DNA of 46,741 nt from assembly GCA_003135135.1 (NCBI GenBank), contig PLDK01000048.1, positions 1-46,741 of the forward strand, given 5' to 3'. Shown here piece by piece: positions 9,563 through 41,101 of the stretch; position 1 is the stretch's first letter, and each line of letters starts with the position of its first letter. This DNA is from Deltaproteobacteria bacterium. Lineage in GTDB: Bacteria; Desulfobacterota; Binatia; Binatales; Binataceae. Made by a program: the position numbers and the translations under genes. The notes beneath the pieces were generated by a model. It did not search any database. It saw only the letters and a program-made list of their open reading frames with translations, and was not told where the DNA came from.

Positions 9563-10402
9563 TCAGTGTGGCTGGGGGTCGGTCGGCGGCTTGGTGAACT
9601 TGAGCGTCATCCGGTCGCTCTCACCGATAGCCAGATACTTGTCGCGATCCTTTTCACCCAGGCGCAAGGTCGGCGGTAGATACCATACCGGATGGTCGCG
9701 CAGGTCCTTGGGATTTGCATTGATTTCCGAGGCGCCCGTCAGTTTGAAGCCGGCCTGTTGCGCGAGTTGGATCATATAGTCCTGGCGCACATATCCGTTC
9801 TTGGCGATGGGATCCTGCGGCTGCGACGGATCGGCGCGATGGTCGACTATTCCCAGGACTCCGCCGGGTTTCAGCGCGCGGTAAAACGCCTTGAAGTAGT
9901 CTTGCGTGTTGCCATGCGCAAGCCAGTCGTGAACGTTACGAAACGTCAAGACCATATCGGCTGAGCCTGCGGGCGCGATGTCGGTTTCGGCCGGCGGCTT
10001 GAGCGTGGTCACGATGACCTGGCCATAGTCGGTGGGATCGGCCTTGAGCTTGTCCTGGAAGGTCTTGGCGCCCGCGCCTCCTCCAACAGCTTCGTAGAGC
10101 TTGCCGTGGTCCTTGAGCAAGGGCGCCAGGATCTCGGTATACCAACCGGCGCCGGGCGAGATCTCGACCACGGTCATGGTGGGCTTTATCCCGAAGAAAG
10201 TGAGCGTTTCCATCGGATGGCGATATTTGTCGCGGGCCCTATTTGCCTGGGAGCGTTGCGGTCCGGCGATCGCCGCCGCAAGCGCGGACTGCGTGCCGGT
10301 GTCATCGCCGGCCGCGCTCGCCGCCGGCATCGGTAAGATCGCAACGATCGACAGAGCAAGCAGGGCATACAACGGGAATCGGATTCGGTGCTTCACTTGC
10401 AT
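9563..10402 (-). CDS. class I SAM-dependent methyltransferase with signal peptide
   Basis: A 279-residue protein. The SAM-binding region is VVEISPGAGWYTEIL (about residues 70-85), followed by the family features TFRNVHDWL and ALKPGGVLGIVDHR. This matches a predicted methyltransferase family (COG4798-like). The N-terminus is a Sec signal (KHRIRFPLYALLALS to ASA), implying export, which is odd for a SAM-dependent enzyme because SAM is cytosolic. ATG 10402 is chosen, with AAGGA about 10 nt upstream; GTG 10420 is an in-frame alternative. It is flanked by both copies of the 152-bp repeat, so it may be a mobile or rearranged single-gene segment. The substrate is unknown. Confidence 0.85.
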   Translation of the reverse strand: MQVKHRIRFPLYALLALSIVAILPMPAASAAGDDTGTQSALAAAIAGPQRSQANRARDKYRHPMETLTFFGIKPTMTVVEISPGAGWYTEILAPLLKDHGKLYEAVGGGAGAKTFQDKLKADPTDYGQVIVTTLKPPAETDIAPAGSADMVLTFRNVHDWLAHGNTQDYFKAFYRALKPGGVLGIVDHRADPSQPQDPIAKNGYVRQDYMIQLAQQAGFKLTGASEINANPKDLRDHPVWYLPPTLRLGEKDRDKYLAIGESDRMTLKFTKPPTDPQPH

Positions 10403-17558: not shown

Positions 17559-18734
17559 CTATTTTGCCTCGTGCATCGCGCGCACCAGAATCGCCGCCAG
17601 CTCCGGCCGCGTAAATTCCGGCGGCGGCGCATCGCCCGCCCGCAGCATCTCGCGAACTTTCGTTCCCGACAGTATCAAGCGGTCTTCGTCGGTATGCGGG
17701 CAGGTCTTGAACGACGCCATCGAGTTGCATCGCTTGCAGTAGAACGTGTTCTCGAACATCAGCGGCGTTATTCCCATTTCGGACGGCTCGAAGCGCTCGA
17801 AGATTTTCTGCGCGTCGTAGCTGCCGTAGTAATTGCCGACGCCGGCGTGATCGCGCCCGACGATGAAATGCGTGCACCCGTAGTTGCGCCGCGCGATCGC
17901 GTGCAGGATCGCCTCGCGCGGGCCGCCATAGCGCATGTGCGCCGGGAACACGCCGATCATCGCGCGATTCTTCGGATAGTACAGGTCGAGCAGAACCTTG
18001 TAAGTCTCCATCCTGACCGCGGCGGGCACGTCGTCGCCTTTGGTTTCTCCCACCAGCGGATGGATCATCAGTCCGTCGCAGATTTCCAGCGCCGCTTTCT
18101 GGATATACTCGTGCGCGCGATGAGTCGGGTTGCGGGTCTGGAAGGCGACGATTTTTTTCCATCCCCGCTCGCGAAACGCCGCCCGCGTCTGCCGGGGCTC
18201 GCGCGGAAATTCCAGGAAGGTGCGCCCCGGTATTTCCTCGATCAGCGTGAGCTTGCCCGCCAGGCAGTACGGCGGCATCGAGGTGACGTTCTTCGCCCCC
18301 GGATGCGCGTCCTCGGCGGTGCCGAACACGTTTTGCGCTTCGCTCTTGCGATCGACTTTGTAGATTTCCGCAAGCTTCAGAATCGCCGGCCGCCGTCCGT
18401 CTTCGGTCGCGAGCGCGATATCCTGTCCGGCTTTCAGCTCTTTCACTGTCGTTTCATCGACGCCGAGCGTGATTGGAATCGACCACGGCACTCCCGACGC
18501 AAGCCGCATCTCGTCGCGCGAGCGAATGTAGTCCGCCTCGCCCATGAAACCCGTCAGGGGCGAGAACGCGCCCGACGCGAGCATCTCGAGATCGGCCAAG
18601 TCGCGCGCGTTGAGCGTAACGGCCGCGAGTTTCGCGCCGTGCGCCGCCAGCGCAGCGCGCTCGGAGACCGGCGCTTTCAGATCGACCAGCTCGCCGCCGC
18701 CATGAGCCGTGATTGCGTCGTCGCGCACGCTCAT
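17559..18734 (-). CDS. sat: sulfate adenylyltransferase (ATP sulfurylase)
   Basis: A 391-residue single-chain ATP sulfurylase, making adenosine 5'-phosphosulfate from ATP and sulfate. It has an N-terminal PUA-like domain (residues 1 to about 170), then the nucleotidyl-transferase domain with [12 protein letters not shown] at 199-210 and GRDHAG at 293-298, the family's ATP and sulfate motifs. A Cys-rich segment near the C-terminus ([17 protein letters not shown]) resembles the zinc-binding loop of the bacterial Sat type. Its ATG overlaps the cysC stop by 4 nt (ATGA), so the two are translationally coupled and together make PAPS. No sulfite-forming reductase is in the window. Confidence 0.95.
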
Positions 18735-19279
18735 CGCCGTGCTCCCTTGCTGACGTAGTTCAGCTCCTCGAGCCGCCCGAGCAACTTGCCCAGACTCTGC
18801 GCTACGGTTTCCGTGCTGCTATCGACAATCAGTTCGGGCTTGAGCGGCTCTTCGTAGGGGTCCGAGACGCCAGTGAAAGATTTGATCTCGCCGGCCAGCG
18901 CCTTCTTGTAGAGCCCTTTCACGTCGCGCTCGACGAGTTTGTCGATCGTGCAGCGGACATAGACTTCGAAGAAATGCTTATGATTGCGCCGCACCTCGTC
19001 GCGAATCTCGCGGTAGGGCGAAATCGCCGCTGAAATCGCGATCACCCCGTTGCGCGCCAGCAGATGGCACACATACCCGATGCGCCGGATGTTGATGTCG
19101 CGATCCTCTTTGGAAAAGCCAAGTCCCTTGGAAAGATTGGTGCGGACTTCGTCACCGTCGAGGATTTCCACGCGATGCGCCCGCCGGCGCAGTTCTTCGG
19201 CAGCCAGATTGGCTAGCGTGGATTTCCCCGCCCCGGACAGGCCTGTAAACCACAAGGTAAAACCTTGATCCATCGGCAA
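18731..19279 (-). CDS. cysC: adenylylsulfate (APS) kinase
   Basis: A 182-residue P-loop kinase that phosphorylates APS to PAPS. The Walker A motif GLSGAGKST lies at residues 13-21. The family motifs [18 protein letters not shown] and [19 protein letters not shown] are present, as is [11 protein letters not shown] near the end. Length is normal. The start is TTG 19279 (GGGAG 9 nt upstream) or ATG 19273; they differ by two residues. It is first in the cysC-sat operon. The upstream 60 bp is strikingly AT-rich. Confidence 0.94.
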
Positions 19280-19392: not shown

Positions 19393-20076
19393 TCAGGCGC
19401 GCGCAGCCGGCACGATCACGTGAATCGCGAGCGCCGCCGGCGAGCCGAAGATTTCGGTGGCGCCTGCCGCGAGCAACCGATCGCGCGCGGCATCGGTGGC
19501 CGCGATTCCATAAAATCGCACGCCACAATTTTGCGCGGCCAGCAGGTCGGCGTCGCTGTCGCCAACAAACGCGGCCTGCGATCGATCGACGGAAAACAAT
19601 TCGAGTGCGGCAATCAGCATGTCGGCCGCCGGCTTGAGTCCGAGCAGAGTGTCGCGTCCGACGATTGCGTCGACGGATGCGCCGGTGTTCCTGCCCAACC
19701 AGCGCTTGACCGTTCTCGACGAGTTGGAGGTCACGATCGCAACGGCGGCGCCGGTTTCTTTCAGTGCCTCGAGCGCTTCGATCGCTCCTTCCAGTGCTTG
19801 CGCGCGATCGACTCCCGCCAGCTCGATTTTCTCGATTATATCCGAAGCGCGGCGCAGTCCTTCGGTGACCCCGGGTTGGTTGATCTCCGCGAGCATGAGC
19901 GTGCGGTAGGCGTCGTAGAGCGGGAGATTGCCGCGCGGGATTCGTGCGAATAGTTGGTCAGGCGCGCCGATGGAGCGCAGGTAGGGTTCGAGCACGAGCC
20001 GCCCGCCGGCCCAATCGACCTCGGGCTCGAGCCGCGCGATCGTGTTGTCGAAATCGAACATCCAGAGCTTGTACAT
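19393..20076 (-). CDS. HAD-superfamily hydrolase (subfamily IA)
   Basis: A 227-residue phosphatase-type HAD protein. Motif I is FDFDNT, with nucleophile Asp8 and acid Asp10; motif II is VTSNSS; motif III is a Lys in LGLKPA; motif IV is FVGDSDAD. The insertion after motif I forms an alpha-helical cap. The complete motif set predicts phosphatase or phosphoglycolate-phosphatase-like activity on a small metabolite. ATG 20076 shares its A with the TGA of the degenerate E1-like gene upstream (TGATG), so translation is coupled. It ends a three-gene set with the two E1-like proteins, and a functional link to them is inferred from that coupling. Confidence 0.88.
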   Translation of the reverse strand: MYKLWMFDFDNTIARLEPEVDWAGGRLVLEPYLRSIGAPDQLFARIPRGNLPLYDAYRTLMLAEINQPGVTEGLRRASDIIEKIELAGVDRAQALEGAIEALEALKETGAAVAIVTSNSSRTVKRWLGRNTGASVDAIVGRDTLLGLKPAADMLIAALELFSVDRSQAAFVGDSDADLLAAQNCGVRFYGIAATDAARDRLLAAGATEIFGSPAALAIHVIVPAARA

Positions 20077-20681
20077 CACGGATGAAGGCGAACCCTGGTT
20101 TGATAACCGTCGAACTCAATGATCGCCGGCGATGGATTTTCCGCGTATCCGGCAATCAGCTTGAATGCCTCCGCCGTCGCGAGCATCGCGATAAATTCCG
20201 CGGCTTCCGAGCGGCTGCCCACTCCCGCATGCATCGACGCATCGACGCTTGGCGCTCTGGGCGCCCCGCCGGGGATGACGGTGATTTTTCCCGGCGCGTC
20301 CAGGCGCGCGACTACCCACGCTCGCACGTCGCGATAGCTCACGATTTCATTCGCAACTTTTCGCGCCGCTTCACTTCCAACGATCAAGAGCGCCAAATCG
20401 ACGCGGCCTTTTGACTCATCCGCGACAGTGACAGATACGCCGGCGTTCAGTTCGCGCGCGGCAGCTATTTCCCCGGCGAATCCGCTTTGGCCGCCGGCCA
20501 CCCGCACGCCGATCGCTCCGACCCCTGCGCCAACCAGGTAAGCCAGCGGCGCTTCGATATCGCGCGCATCGCCCGCCAGCACCGTCCGCGCGGCAATCAA
20601 ACGTTCCTGGCCGCGGCCGCCGATGCGCGGCACGATTATCTGGCGGCTGTAGCGTTCGATTTGCGCGTCAGTCAGGGTCAT
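20076..20681 (-). CDS. degenerate (inactive) E1-like/ThiF-fold partner protein
   Basis: A 201-residue homologue of MoeB/ThiF-type E1 enzymes that has lost its active site. The N-terminus MTLTDAQIERYSRQIIVPRI is the typical E1 opening, with Arg13 at the place of MoeB Arg14. The C-terminal SEAAEFIAMLATAEAFKLIAG matches the last helix of MoeB. The ATP loop is gone (AGDARDIEAP instead of GxGGLGxP), and the Asp after beta-2, the NLxRQ arginine and all zinc Cys are missing. It is not a fragment of the neighbour: both genes cover the fold through to the C-terminus. It starts 10 nt after the stop of the active E1-like gene and overlaps the HAD gene. A stabilising or arginine-donating role is inferred. 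Confidence 0.82.
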   Translation of the reverse strand: MTLTDAQIERYSRQIIVPRIGGRGQERLIAARTVLAGDARDIEAPLAYLVGAGVGAIGVRVAGGQSGFAGEIAAARELNAGVSVTVADESKGRVDLALLIVGSEAARKVANEIVSYRDVRAWVVARLDAPGKITVIPGGAPRAPSVDASMHAGVGSRSEAAEFIAMLATAEAFKLIAGYAENPSPAIIEFDGYQTRVRLHP

Positions 20682-20691
20682 CGCGATTCCG

Positions 20692-21498
20692 TCATCTGCC
20701 CGGCGATTGCGACTCGCGCCGCCCGCGCGCATCGCGCCCCTGCGGCTTCCACGCGCCGCAGCCGCACCCGGAGCGAGGACTAACCGCCGCAATTCGCACC
20801 CGGGCCGGGCCGGACGCGTCGCAGGTGAGAATTTTTCCCGAGAGCAAGGGCGTTTGCCCGCGCACGGCGCGCATCGCCTCCGCCGCCTGCAGCTCGCCGA
20901 TCGCGCCCGCCACGGGACCGACGATCCCCGCTTCGCGACAACTCTGGGTTTCGTTTTCATCAGGCGGAGTCTCGAACACGCATCGGATGCACGCCGTCTG
21001 GCCCGGGATTACCGTCATCGCCTGCCCGGTCATCCCAACTACACCGCCGTAAACGAACGGCGTCCGCGCGGTGATACACGTGTCGTTGATCAAAAATTTC
21101 GTGGCCGGACTGTCAGTCGCGTCGATTACAAAGTCGTGTAGTACTACCAGACGCGCCGCGTTGGACGCTTCGAGCGCAATCGGATGCCGTTTCACGTTGA
21201 CCTCGGGGAACCGCTCGACCAGCCATCGCGCCGCCGCATCAACCTTCGGCGTGCCGGTATCCCGGCTTCGATAGATCACCTGGCGAGCGAGATTCGACAG
21301 TTCGACGGGGTCGGGATCGATTAGCGTCAGCCGCCTTGCGCCGGCTCGCGCCAGCGCCCGCAATGCGGGAACGCCGAGTCCGCCCAAGCCGACGATCAGT
21401 ATTCGTTGTGTTGCCACTTCGTCGTGCTTCTCCCGCCCGTCGAGAGCCGCAACGCCATCAGTGCTGGTGGGAGTTGGTGAAAAATCCTGCGACGACAA
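20692..21498 (-). CDS. E1-like (ThiF/MoeB/HesA) adenylating enzyme lacking the N-terminal arm
   Basis: Up to 268 residues. The ATP loop ILIVGLGGLGVPA, the nucleotide Asp (LIDPD), ELSNLARQ (arginine), GTPKV (lysine), and VIDATDSPATK are all present. So are CIRC, a Cys in QSCREAGI, and a C-terminal CGCG in the place of the second zinc Cys pair. It should therefore adenylate the C-terminus of a ubiquitin-like sulfur carrier (ThiS/MoaD type). The N-terminal RYxRQ arm present in MoeB/ThiF is absent: the Rossmann fold starts near residue 32 after a polar stretch. The start is TTG 21498, or more simply GTG 21417 (V28). It is first in the E1-E1-HAD operon. Confidence 0.87.
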   Translation of the reverse strand: MSSQDFSPTPTSTDGVAALDGREKHDEVATQRILIVGLGGLGVPALRALARAGARRLTLIDPDPVELSNLARQVIYRSRDTGTPKVDAAARWLVERFPEVNVKRHPIALEASNAARLVVLHDFVIDATDSPATKFLINDTCITARTPFVYGGVVGMTGQAMTVIPGQTACIRCVFETPPDENETQSCREAGIVGPVAGAIGELQAAEAMRAVRGQTPLLSGKILTCDASGPARVRIAAVSPRSGCGCGAWKPQGRDARGRRESQSPGR

Positions 21499-21724
21499 GA
21501 AAGCTGCAATCGCTGACAGTTGGCTGACGGTAATATGCGAGCGCGGGCGTTGTCAATCGACGGACCAATCGGTCAGGCGCCTGTCAATTCCTCTGTCAAC
21601 TCGCTTGCCACTCGCCTGCCATTTGTCTATGTTGCCGCATCGTGCAGACGGTCTTATGGCGGAGGAACGAAATTCGCGCCGCCGGACTGCGTATTTTGCG
21701 GATTAAATGCATAGGAGATCGACT

Positions 21725-38467: not shown

Positions 38468-39703
38468 TTACCGCGCCGACGATCCCGCACTCGCATGCGC
38501 TGTGGGTTGTGCGTCTGCGGCTCCGTTGGCAGGCGCGCCCAGGCCGCAGAACGCTTCGTAATCGATAAGCGTGGTTTGGCTGGGATGCTCGCCGCAGACG
38601 GGGCACTTCGGATCTTTGCGGATCTTCAGAACTCGCACGTAGTCCTTGTCCGACAGCGTGTCGAAGTAAACCAGCTTGCCGATTAGCGGAGACCCCGCGC
38701 CGATTATCAGCTTGATCGCCTCGAGCGCTTCGATCGATCCGATCAATCCCGGAAGCGCGCCGAGCACGCCGGCTTCCGCGCATGACGGCGCCATTCCCGG
38801 CGGCGCCGGTTCGGGATACAGGCATCGGTAGCAAGGTCCGCCTTTGGCCGGATAGAAAACCGTGGCGTTGCCTTCGAAGCGGAAAATCGCGCCGTCCACC
38901 AGCGGCTTCTTTGAGAATACGCACGCGTCGTTGATCAAATATCGAGTCGGGAAATTGTCACCGCAGTTCACGACCACGTCGTAGTCCTTGATGATGTCCA
39001 TCGCGTTGCCGGACGTGAGCCGCACGTCGTGACGAATCACCTTGACGCCCGGATTCAGCGCGTTGATTTGCTTTTGCGCCGACTCGGTCTTCGCCATCCC
39101 GACGCGATCGGTGGTGTGGATGATCTGCCGCTGAAGATTGGACAGATCGACCGCGTCGAAATCCACCAGGCCTATCGTGCCGACTCCCGCCGCCGCCAGG
39201 TATAGCGCCGCCGGCGAGCCGAGCGCGCCCGCGCCAAGCAGCATCACCCTGGCGTCGAGCAGTTTTGCCTGTCCCTTCTCGCCGACCTCGGGAATTACGA
39301 AATGGCGCGAATAGCGGGTCAGCTCCCCGGCCGTAAACGCGCGATCCGCCACCCACGGCAGGCCGCGATCCTTCCACGCGCTGAAGCCGCCCGTCATGCT
39401 GTATACGTTTTCGTAACCGAGCTCGCGCATCGTCCGCGCCGCCAGGATCGAGCGTGTGCCCGACGCGCATTGCACGATGACCGGCGTCTTGCGGTCGGGG
39501 ATGCGCTCCTCGATTCTGAGTTCCAGGAAACCGCGGGGAATCGCGACCGCTTGCGCAATATGCCCCTGCCGCCACTCGTCGCTTTCGCGTACGTCAAGCA
39601 GCACCGTGCCGGGCTGTTCGATCATCCGGCGCGCTTCATCGATATCGATCTGCTTAATTGTCGAGCGTGCTTCGTCGAGGATATTCTTCGAAGTCTTCGC
39701 CAT
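38468..39703 (-). CDS. moeB: rhodanese-MoeB/ThiF fusion (E1-like adenylyltransferase)
   Basis: A 411-residue fusion with a rhodanese domain first (residues about 15-118; active Cys in VIVQCASGTRS) and an E1-like domain second (about 125-385). The E1 part has the RYSRHFVIPE arm, GAGALGSPAALYLAAAGVG, DFDAVDLSNLQRQ, and Cys pairs CYRC and CPVC. It should adenylate a MoaD/ThiS-type carrier and transfer sulfur from the rhodanese Cys. MOCS3/Uba4 has the opposite order (E1 then rhodanese). This full-length enzyme is a useful contrast to the split pair at 20-21 kb. It lies 87 bp downstream of thiC, suggesting thiazole or molybdopterin sulfur transfer. Confidence 0.9.
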   Translation of the reverse strand: MAKTSKNILDEARSTIKQIDIDEARRMIEQPGTVLLDVRESDEWRQGHIAQAVAIPRGFLELRIEERIPDRKTPVIVQCASGTRSILAARTMRELGYENVYSMTGGFSAWKDRGLPWVADRAFTAGELTRYSRHFVIPEVGEKGQAKLLDARVMLLGAGALGSPAALYLAAAGVGTIGLVDFDAVDLSNLQRQIIHTTDRVGMAKTESAQKQINALNPGVKVIRHDVRLTSGNAMDIIKDYDVVVNCGDNFPTRYLINDACVFSKKPLVDGAIFRFEGNATVFYPAKGGPCYRCLYPEPAPPGMAPSCAEAGVLGALPGLIGSIEALEAIKLIIGAGSPLIGKLVYFDTLSDKDYVRVLKIRKDPKCPVCGEHPSQTTLIDYEAFCGLGAPANGAADAQPTAHASAGSSAR

Positions 39704-39790: not shown

Positions 39791-41101
39791 TCAGCCGGCG
39801 GCATGCGACGCAGCCTCGGCCAGCGAGCGCCGCTTGGTGAACTTAATCGCCGCATTGTCGATGTTGATCGAGCACAGCGAGCCGCACATCGTGCAGACGT
39901 TGGAACCCGCCGCTTCGCTTTCTTCCTTGTAGCGGCGCGCCTTGTCGGGGTCCATCGCCATCGCGTACATCCCTTCCCAGTTGAGCGCCTTGCGGTATCG
40001 CGACATCTGATCGTTCCAGACTTTCGCCCCGCGCACTCCCTTGACCAGGTCGCCCGAGTGAGCCGCGATTCGCGTCGCGATAACTCCTTCGCGCACGTCG
40101 TCTATATCGGGCAGCCGCAAATGCTCGGCCGGCGTCACGTAGCACAGAAAATCGGTTCCCGCCGCCGACGCGATCGCTCCGCCAATCGCACCGGTGATGT
40201 GATCGTAGCCCGGCGCGACGTCGCAGGTGAGCGGCCCGAGCACATAAAACGGCGCGCCCGCGCAGACGCGCTTCTCGAGTTTCACGTTGGCTTCGATTTG
40301 ATCGAGCGGCACATGGCCGGGACCCTCGATCATCACCTGCACGCCCATCGCGCGGGCGCGCTCGGTCAATTCCCCCATCACCAGCAGCTCCGAGATTTGC
40401 CCGCGATCGGTCGCGTCGCCGGTGGCGCCTGGCCGCAGCCCGTCGCCGATCGATATCGTCACGTCATGCTCGCGCAGCACCGCGCAAACCTCGTCGAAGT
40501 GCTCGTATAGCGGATTCTCGTTGCCGGTCCGATCGATCCACGCCGCCAGCATCGCTCCGCCGCGCGACACGATGCCTTCGATTCGCCGATGCCCGCGCAG
40601 CCGCTTCACGCTCTCGCGCGTGACCCCGCAATGCAGCGTCATGTAATCGACGCCCTGGCGCGCCTGCCGCTCGATAACGTCGATAAAGTACTCGGCCTCC
40701 ATCTCCATGATCGTGCGCTCGGAGCCGAGCTGGTAGATGGGCACGGTGCCCAGGATCACGGTGCATCGCGACAGGATCTCCGCGCGTATTTTGTCGAGGT
40801 CGGTGCCCGTCGAAAGATCCATCACCGAGTCGGCGCCGTAGCGGATCGCGGTGTAAAGTTTCTCGACTTCCTCTTCGATCAGCTGATGGAAGTTCGACGC
40901 GCCGATGTTGGCGTTGACCTTGGTGCGCAGGCCCTTGCCGATTCCGATTGCTCTGAAATCGTGATGGATATTGTGCGGGATCACCACCTCGCCGGTCGCG
41001 ACCAGCGCGCGAATTTCTTCGGCGGCGAAACCTTCGTCCTCGGCAACTTCGGTCATCTGCCGGGTGATTATGTTCTTGCGAGCGGCTTCAATCTGCGTCA
41101 T
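39791..41101 (-). CDS. thiC: phosphomethylpyrimidine synthase
   Basis: A 436-residue radical-SAM-like [4Fe-4S] enzyme converting aminoimidazole ribotide to hydroxymethylpyrimidine phosphate in thiamine synthesis. Landmarks: VNANIGASNFHQLIEEEVEK, GADSVMDLSTGTDL, MIEGPGHVPL, and the C-terminal cluster motif CTMCGSLC. Length is normal for the short bacterial form. GGAGGTGA stands 4 nt before the ATG, a strong ribosome site. Only 55 bp separate it from the upstream small membrane protein, too short for a TPP riboswitch, and none was seen. Rhodanese-MoeB follows. Confidence 0.95.
   Translation of the reverse strand: MTQIEAARKNIITRQMTEVAEDEGFAAEEIRALVATGEVVIPHNIHHDFRAIGIGKGLRTKVNANIGASNFHQLIEEEVEKLYTAIRYGADSVMDLSTGTDLDKIRAEILSRCTVILGTVPIYQLGSERTIMEMEAEYFIDVIERQARQGVDYMTLHCGVTRESVKRLRGHRRIEGIVSRGGAMLAAWIDRTGNENPLYEHFDEVCAVLREHDVTISIGDGLRPGATGDATDRGQISELLVMGELTERARAMGVQVMIEGPGHVPLDQIEANVKLEKRVCAGAPFYVLGPLTCDVAPGYDHITGAIGGAIASAAGTDFLCYVTPAEHLRLPDIDDVREGVIATRIAAHSGDLVKGVRGAKVWNDQMSRYRKALNWEGMYAMAMDPDKARRYKEESEAAGSNVCTMCGSLCSINIDNAAIKFTKRRSLAEAASHAAG

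Follow-up and report, generated by a model that had tools for sequence, protein, structure and literature searches.

A putative two-chain sulfur-carrier E1-like enzyme of Binatia and Magnetococcia, with the arginine arm on a catalytically decayed partner

The window analyzed here is the whole 46,741-nucleotide stretch of contig PLDK01000048.1 (assembly GCA_003135135.1) of a Deltaproteobacteria bacterium of the family Binataceae, class Binatia. On its minus strand, five genes are found in the transcriptional order E1a, E1d, HAD-family hydrolase, CysC-like and Sat-like (Table 1). E1a, an adenylation protein of the ThiF/MoeB type, lacks the N-terminal arm, and E1d is a decayed relative that bears it. 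An earlier note, made from the sequence alone, had described the two as adjacent, coupled genes, and both open reading frames lie where it placed them, separated by the short junction listed in Table 1.

Table 1. Features of the E1a-E1d locus, in positions of the window.
Feature	Position	Strand	Remark
E1a (P0002), armless active ThiF/MoeB-type adenylation protein	20692..21498	-	268 aa from TTG
Gly loop GLGGLG of E1a	21373..21390	-	Read from translation
SNLARQ of E1a	21280..21297	-	Arginine is the counterpart of MoeB Arg73 / ThiF Arg70 (residue names from PMC13139853)
E1a/E1d junction, 10 bases	20682..20691		ThrC, CysO-like carrier, CysM and NIL lie here in most other Binataceae
E1d (P0001), decayed ThiF/MoeB relative, arm-bearing	20076..20681	-	201 aa
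RYSRQ arm motif of E1d, residues 10-14	20640..20654	-	From translation and alignments
E1d Arg13	20643-20645	-	Counterpart of MoeB Arg14 / ThiF Arg11
HAD-family hydrolase	19393..20079	-	Overlaps E1d by 4 bases; 3' of E1d in many relatives
CysC-like (APS kinase), same operon	18731..19279	-	Name presumed, also by identity to the relatives' gene
Sat-like (ATP sulfurylase), same operon	17559..18734	-	Name presumed, also by identity to the relatives' gene

The translation of E1a contains GLGGLG, SNLARQ, GTPKV with the PKV lysine, DATDS, CIRC and a CGCG end. E1a belongs to the Pfam family ThiF (PF00899), which it matches at 222.1 bits with a cut-off of 28.1 (E=7.8e-66) and which is the sole Pfam family above cut-off in this protein, while it stays below the MoeB/ThiF equivalog cut-offs of NCBIfam and below those of all the best 25 of 35 models, the top score being 188.5 bits vs. 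the 275.25 bits needed for TIGR02356. No arm is found in the whole open frame of E1a back to the upstream stop near position 21552, and the protein is armless whether it starts at TTG 21498 or at GTG 21417, the in-frame start closest to the Gly loop. The last four residues of the Gly loop, GGLG, are invariant across 28 E1a orthologues, in some of whose rows the first two residues precede the chosen start. The claim that the first gene combines a complete set of adenylation residues with a missing arm is therefore borne out.

E1d lacks the active-site motifs and retains much of the fold. Its match to Pfam ThiF, over residues 11-59, reaches 18.8 bits and stays below the cut-off of 28.1, and the matches to the NCBIfam MoeB models end at residue 58 or 59 (for residues 2-58, E=3.6e-10). 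A profile of the E1d family nevertheless aligns nearly end to end with E. coli ThiF (1zfn), with RYSRQ placed on RYSRQ and a gap at the NLxRQ stretch of ThiF. The AlphaFold single-chain model of E1d (mean pLDDT 85.4, pTM 0.84) has Uba4, ThiF and MoeB as its best PDB matches, followed by PaaA, MccB and SUMO E1 chains; the arm itself is modeled with low confidence (pLDDT blocks of 64 and 65). Despite the sub-threshold Pfam score, homology of E1d to ThiF/MoeB is clear from the MoeB model, the profile search of PDB and the fold. As the earlier note had stated, the second gene is thus decayed with RYSRQ kept, and its Arg13 occupies the position of MoeB Arg14. Homologues of E1d recur in 35 of the 41 genomes of the window's family, f1 (E 2.6e-14 or better), and homologues of E1a in 33 of 41 (E 2.4e-66 or better), so neither is a chance open reading frame; the remaining six genomes of the E1d search comprise four that match via the arm of MoeB only and two without any match.

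In the relatives of family f1, E1a and E1d are usually found about 3 kb apart, bracketing four genes whose products are a ThrC-like (threonine synthase-like) protein, a 92-aa CysO-like carrier with the ThiS/MoaD fold, a protein resembling CysM and one with a NIL domain. Where no gene is missing, the operon reads E1a, ThrC, carrier, CysM, NIL, E1d, HAD, CysC and Sat; some loci are incomplete. A ThiS-fold carrier and CysM beside an E1, as in the CysO/CysM pathway, are thus present in the relatives (e.g., L064) and absent from the window, and the bracketed genes are the setting of thiocarboxylate cysteine synthesis in these relatives. E1a and E1d are adjacent in the window genome (G000) and in G001, G005 and G006; the loci of these four lack the intervening genes and all retain the pair. 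Orthologues of CysO and CysM were not found in these four genomes, where the best CysM match shares 44-45% identity, compared with 73-74% for the orthologue in G002 and G004. Each of the four encodes three ThiS-family proteins, to which G002 and G004 add one at the operon place. The absence of a carrier beside the window pair therefore looks like a recent loss. The remark in the earlier note that no carrier gene lies beside the pair is correct for the window and does not extend to most relatives, in which the CysO-like gene lies between E1a and E1d; its guess of sulfur-carrier chemistry fits the relatives, with CysO-like carrier and CysM between the two genes, and finds neither gene at the window locus itself.

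Among 93 CysO-like open reading frames of the Binatia operons, no more than 15 have GG as their very last residues; in many, the C-terminus runs on by at least one residue (IAGGR in 29 of the 93), which suggests from the sequences that the carrier may be matured by a protease. A MoaD-like carrier of the window genome (L104, positions 9784-10104, minus strand, contig C38) ends in GGGDV, and its residues beyond Gly-Gly would need to be removed ahead of adenylation; the neighboring gene presumably encodes the large subunit of a molybdenum hydroxylase. A second complete MoeB-type protein, with its own RYSRH arm, is encoded in the window at 38468-39703 (minus strand). We take its N-terminal part to be rhodanese-like and the gene at 39791-41101 in the adjacent region to be ThiC-like. 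That E1d serves as partner of this rhodanese-MoeB was considered and rejected, as MoeB has its own arm and as G018 and G025, from which both E1a and E1d are missing, retain MoeB. A third ThiF domain of the window genome (C46:162940-163413, L003) belongs to a 601-aa protein that resembles an E2-E1 fusion and is followed by a small gene resembling a JAB protease, an arrangement that recalls anti-phage ubiquitin-like systems.

The pairing was then counted across Binatia. An E1 match is found in 144 of the 148 genomes of the class, and since operons were taken by genus, the tally covers a subset of 105 genomes, 37 of f1 and 68 picked by genus from 16 other families. An armless E1 together with an arm-bearing dead partner was recorded by script in 80 of the 105, and in 81 when G447 is included. 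The partner of G447 fell below the BLAST cut-off of the script, and a frameshift was ruled out when the third frame was found to encode an intact arm-bearing protein. The dead partner is thus present in 81 of the 84 Binatia genomes that have an armless E1a. The other three genomes without a partner by script (G003, G475, and G031) also yielded none in a whole-genome profile search; the loci of G003 and G475 are cut by contig ends, and in G031, a member of Binataceae, the operon runs from NIL directly into another gene. Conversely, G008, G016, G022 and G035 have the partner on contigs that stop before the place of E1a. In 12 of the armless genomes, the reading frame is closed by a stop less than 22 codons ahead of the Gly loop, leaving no room for an arm.

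In 16 of the 105 genomes (12 of f5, three of f117, and one of f116), the E1 bears an arm itself and has no dead partner. A whole-genome search with the E1d profile detected no dead partner in any of 24 armed-family genomes, the 16 tallied and eight more. In 23 of these, the profile matched two proteins each, the armed E1 and a second, mostly longer open reading frame that was taken for MoeB. The remaining genome, G499, gave extra pieces; one of them, truncated by a contig end, has the arm as well as GAGGLG and is therefore the N-terminal portion of the genome's interrupted E1. Armed homologues of the first gene that occur without the second, which the earlier note had regarded as evidence against its reading, do exist, but they fall in separate families from which the dead partner is absent, and the proposed division of labor withstands this comparison. 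In G096 (f3, L149), two complete armed E1-like enzymes, both on long tree branches, flank the ThrC-CysO-CysM-NIL operon, one at each end; this double-armed operon could possibly be a living intermediate or a later replacement.

The counterpart of MoeB Arg14 is present in all 84 recorded dead partners of Binatia. Partners had first been recorded only if they carried the arm motif, so the scan was repeated without that condition; it yielded no dead partner lacking the motif, its two motif-less matches being E1a fragments. The arm is the part by which partners are found most easily, and a partner that had lost it might be missed. The motif R[YF]..Q is found in 34 of the 35 E1d homologues of f1; the remaining one reads HYSRQ and so still has the arginine that is the counterpart of MoeB Arg14. 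When two fragments shorter than 90 residues are left out, the arginine at the Arg14 position is found in 82 of 82 aligned partners, nine of which have another residue at the Arg11 position. Mean column identity among the Binatia partners is 0.75 over the 26 arm columns vs. 0.37 over the 184 others, and the corresponding values among 18 armed enzymes are 0.84 and 0.76. Short partners, down to about 118 aa, are frequent in families f2, f6, f8 and f114, and both arginines are kept in 12 of 12; in a fold search with the 118-aa partner, nothing reached E 0.001, the best match being ThiF at 1.6e-3. Invariant columns of E1d outside the arm include Q25, L46, Y48, G51, G53, G55 and N79.

Arm-bearing dead proteins also turned up in Magnetococcales, in a collection of named genomes. 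From the class of L308, represented by 48 genomes, 40 stretches were examined in addition to L308, L315 and L316. E1a is found in 29 of the 40 stretches and in these three loci, and it is armless in 32 of 32, with fewer than 22 open codons ahead of the Gly loop in 10; the other 11 stretches hold TusA relatives or partners only and are uninformative on E1a. The genes are laid out as E1a, a CysK/CysM-like gene, E1d and TusA, and TusA is either the gene next after E1d or fused to it (L318-L377). A combination of a dead E1 with TusA, adjacent or fused, is not known to have been described. A partner is present for 30 of the 32 armless loci, in G528 and G529 on another contig; the two exceptions are G542 and G562, in which a profile search of the entire genome did not detect one. 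Arg10, Ser12 and Arg13 are kept in all 30 aligned Magnetococcia partners, whose mean identity is 0.69 in the arm vs. 0.41 elsewhere. Further partners with the arginine are those of G530-G533, G543, G546, G564 and G565; the partners of G531, G532 and G533 retain a Gly loop and thus seem less far decayed. With the Binatia counts, these results answer the question, raised in the earlier note, of whether homologues of the second gene lack the arginine: none does among the 84 Binatia and 30 aligned Magnetococcia partners. A viral collection scanned with Magnetococcales E1a contained no relative.

For the history of the pair, a quick tree of 160 rows placed the armless enzymes of Binatia and Magnetococcia apart. 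Trees of 55 and 52 rows, in which rows had been thinned and long-branched rows dropped by hand, united them with support of 96/88 and 97/92, respectively, the 52-row tree also being without families f2, f6 and f8. When a single Binatia clade was put to the AU test, p was 0.054. The dead-partner profiles of the two classes match each other at E=4.7e-37, compared with 9.2e-9 for E1d vs. E1a within Binatia. In light of the careful trees and of this closeness of profiles, two independent origins were dropped as a firm claim. We favor, without regarding it as settled, a single origin with transfer. The pair itself would have arisen from a homodimeric MoeB-like enzyme that was duplicated and whose two copies underwent complementary loss. 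Related genomes are not independent and the split may have arisen once, so the number of genomes is not a number of independent events; judged from the sequences, the strength of the case would lie in the long-kept pairing and in apparent selection for one residue in an otherwise decaying protein.

UBA1 Arg57 and its counterparts in SAE1 and NAE1 sit in the inactive half of the eukaryotic E1s. Arg57 is found at the place of the gamma-phosphate, in parallel to MoeB (PMC12355090), and ThiF Arg11 and MoeB Arg14 are fingers contributed by the neighboring subunit (PMC13139853). On this parallel, we propose that E1a and E1d probably form a heterodimeric, sulfur-carrier E1-like enzyme in which the arm is useful. 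E1d would take the place of the second, identical MoeB/ThiF subunit beside E1a, which would bind ATP and the C-terminus of the carrier and make the acyl-adenylate, while the arm arginine of E1d would reach into the E1a site. In most relatives, we infer, the substrate would be the CysO-like carrier, and the product would feed CysM, the presumed acceptor as in Mycobacterium (PMC3227635), for the synthesis of cysteine from sulfate.

The division of labor that the earlier note had proposed is thereby partly upheld: the invariant arginine and the lack of partners among the armed E1s favor it, while the armless E1a without a detected partner in G031, G542 and G562, as in the cut loci of G003 and G475, and the reports that MoeB and ThiF do not depend on the finger arginine and that its effect in Tcd1-Tcd2 is small (PMC13139853), speak against it, at least in a simple catalytic form. 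Since the finger is reported as non-essential, E1d may be at least as important in building the dimer or, where TusA accompanies it in Magnetococcia, in recruiting that protein. E1d could accordingly be a structural or docking partner, filling the second place of the dimer and keeping the sulfur donor or CysM close to E1a, its arm serving mainly for packing. This is consistent with the position of Magnetococcia E1d ahead of, or fused to, TusA, a sulfur-transfer domain, and with the invariant columns outside the arm. Packing poorly explains, however, why the Arg14 position is invariant in 112 aligned partners (82 and 30) when the Arg11 position varies in Binatia, and we regard this explanation as rather unlikely. 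That E1d is merely what remains of a duplicated E1 on its way to loss, and persists through chance or because its translation is coupled to that of the operon, might be thought from its high divergence and from the five examined genomes of both classes, two with cut loci, in which no partner was found. A relic would hardly be expected to retain an open reading frame, the arm and its position among the genes in 81 of the 84 Binatia genomes with an armless E1 and to be present for 30 of 32 Magnetococcia loci, nor to have an arm so much more conserved than its remainder, and we give this explanation almost no credence.

The heterodimer reading leaves room for a different substrate in the window genome. 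As the carrier gene of the operon was lost in the window subclade, the pair there would serve one of three other carriers or be a remnant. We take these carriers to be ThiS, a MoaD-MoaE fusion and the MoaD-like protein beside the molybdenum hydroxylase. Rededication of the pair to one of them would agree with the missing CysO and CysM orthologues and the three other ThiS-family proteins in each of the four genomes, but relatives that keep CysO own such carriers too, and the rhodanese-MoeB is present and could serve them; we consider it improbable. A broader proposal is tentative, and we would put it at somewhat below even: through duplication and complementary loss, bacteria may have evolved obligate heterodimeric sulfur-carrier E1s that have the layout of eukaryotic E1s on two subunits, and the dead subunit may later have shrunk to a mere arm module (about 118 aa) or, fused to TusA, have become the sulfur-donor side. 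If so, one side of the dimer would adenylate the carrier and the other side would deliver the sulfur. The purpose of a non-essential arginine finger also becomes testable in a protein that kept the arginine where all catalytic motifs were lost.

Operons that combine a ThiS/MoaD protein, an E1-like enzyme and a cysteine synthase have been described, an inactive E1 not being named in the part of that description consulted (PMC1779556). Mycobacterium CysO-CysM-MoeZ resembles the present operon in its ThiS/MoaD-fold carrier, CysM-type synthase and E1 (PMC3227635). It differs in that MoeZ is one undivided chain that includes a rhodanese domain, whereas the E1 is split here, and in that the operon here adds ThrC-, NIL-, CysC- and Sat-like genes. 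A full-text literature search, read at the level of titles and abstract openings and with subscription literature largely outside it, returned no description of a bacterial sulfur-carrier E1 made of two chains, one of them dead and bearing the arm. Within that scope, the statement of the earlier note that no bacterial system of this form has been described holds for the two-chain form; it has to be qualified for BilD, which also combines an inactive (IAD) and an active (AAD) adenylation domain (PMC11354881). Unlike the pair, BilD carries both domains on one chain, has a cysteine domain and acts for a ubiquitin-like protein.

Reviews contrast the homodimeric MoeB/ThiF of prokaryotes with the half-dead E1s of eukaryotes (PMC12687455, PMC12355090). 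The pair shares with MoeB/ThiF the fold, the adenylation residues in E1a and the Arg14/Arg11 arm motif in E1d. MoeB and ThiF have arm and active site in each subunit, whereas the two are placed on separate proteins here. Yeast Tcd1-Tcd2 is likewise a ThiF-like heterodimer, in which Arg59 of one subunit is the finger in the site of the other (PMC13139853); it is eukaryotic, however, and acts on tRNA t6A, and Tcd1 misses one ATP-coordinating arginine without having its site stripped. In SAE1-SAE2 and NAE1-UBA3, active and inactive homologous adenylation subunits are combined (PMC12687455, PMC12355090), a combination that E1a and E1d match at the level of sequence. In contrast to these E1s, the bacterial proteins, of 268 and 201 aa, have neither a catalytic-cysteine domain nor a ubiquitin-fold domain and are found in the context of sulfur metabolism. 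The step from a homodimer to a dimer with one dead half may thus be watched in bacteria, through apparent intermediates that range from a single intact enzyme and a pair of intact enzymes to progressively smaller dead partners, and the pair, seen in Binatia and Magnetococcia, echoes the architecture of ubiquitin-type E1s.
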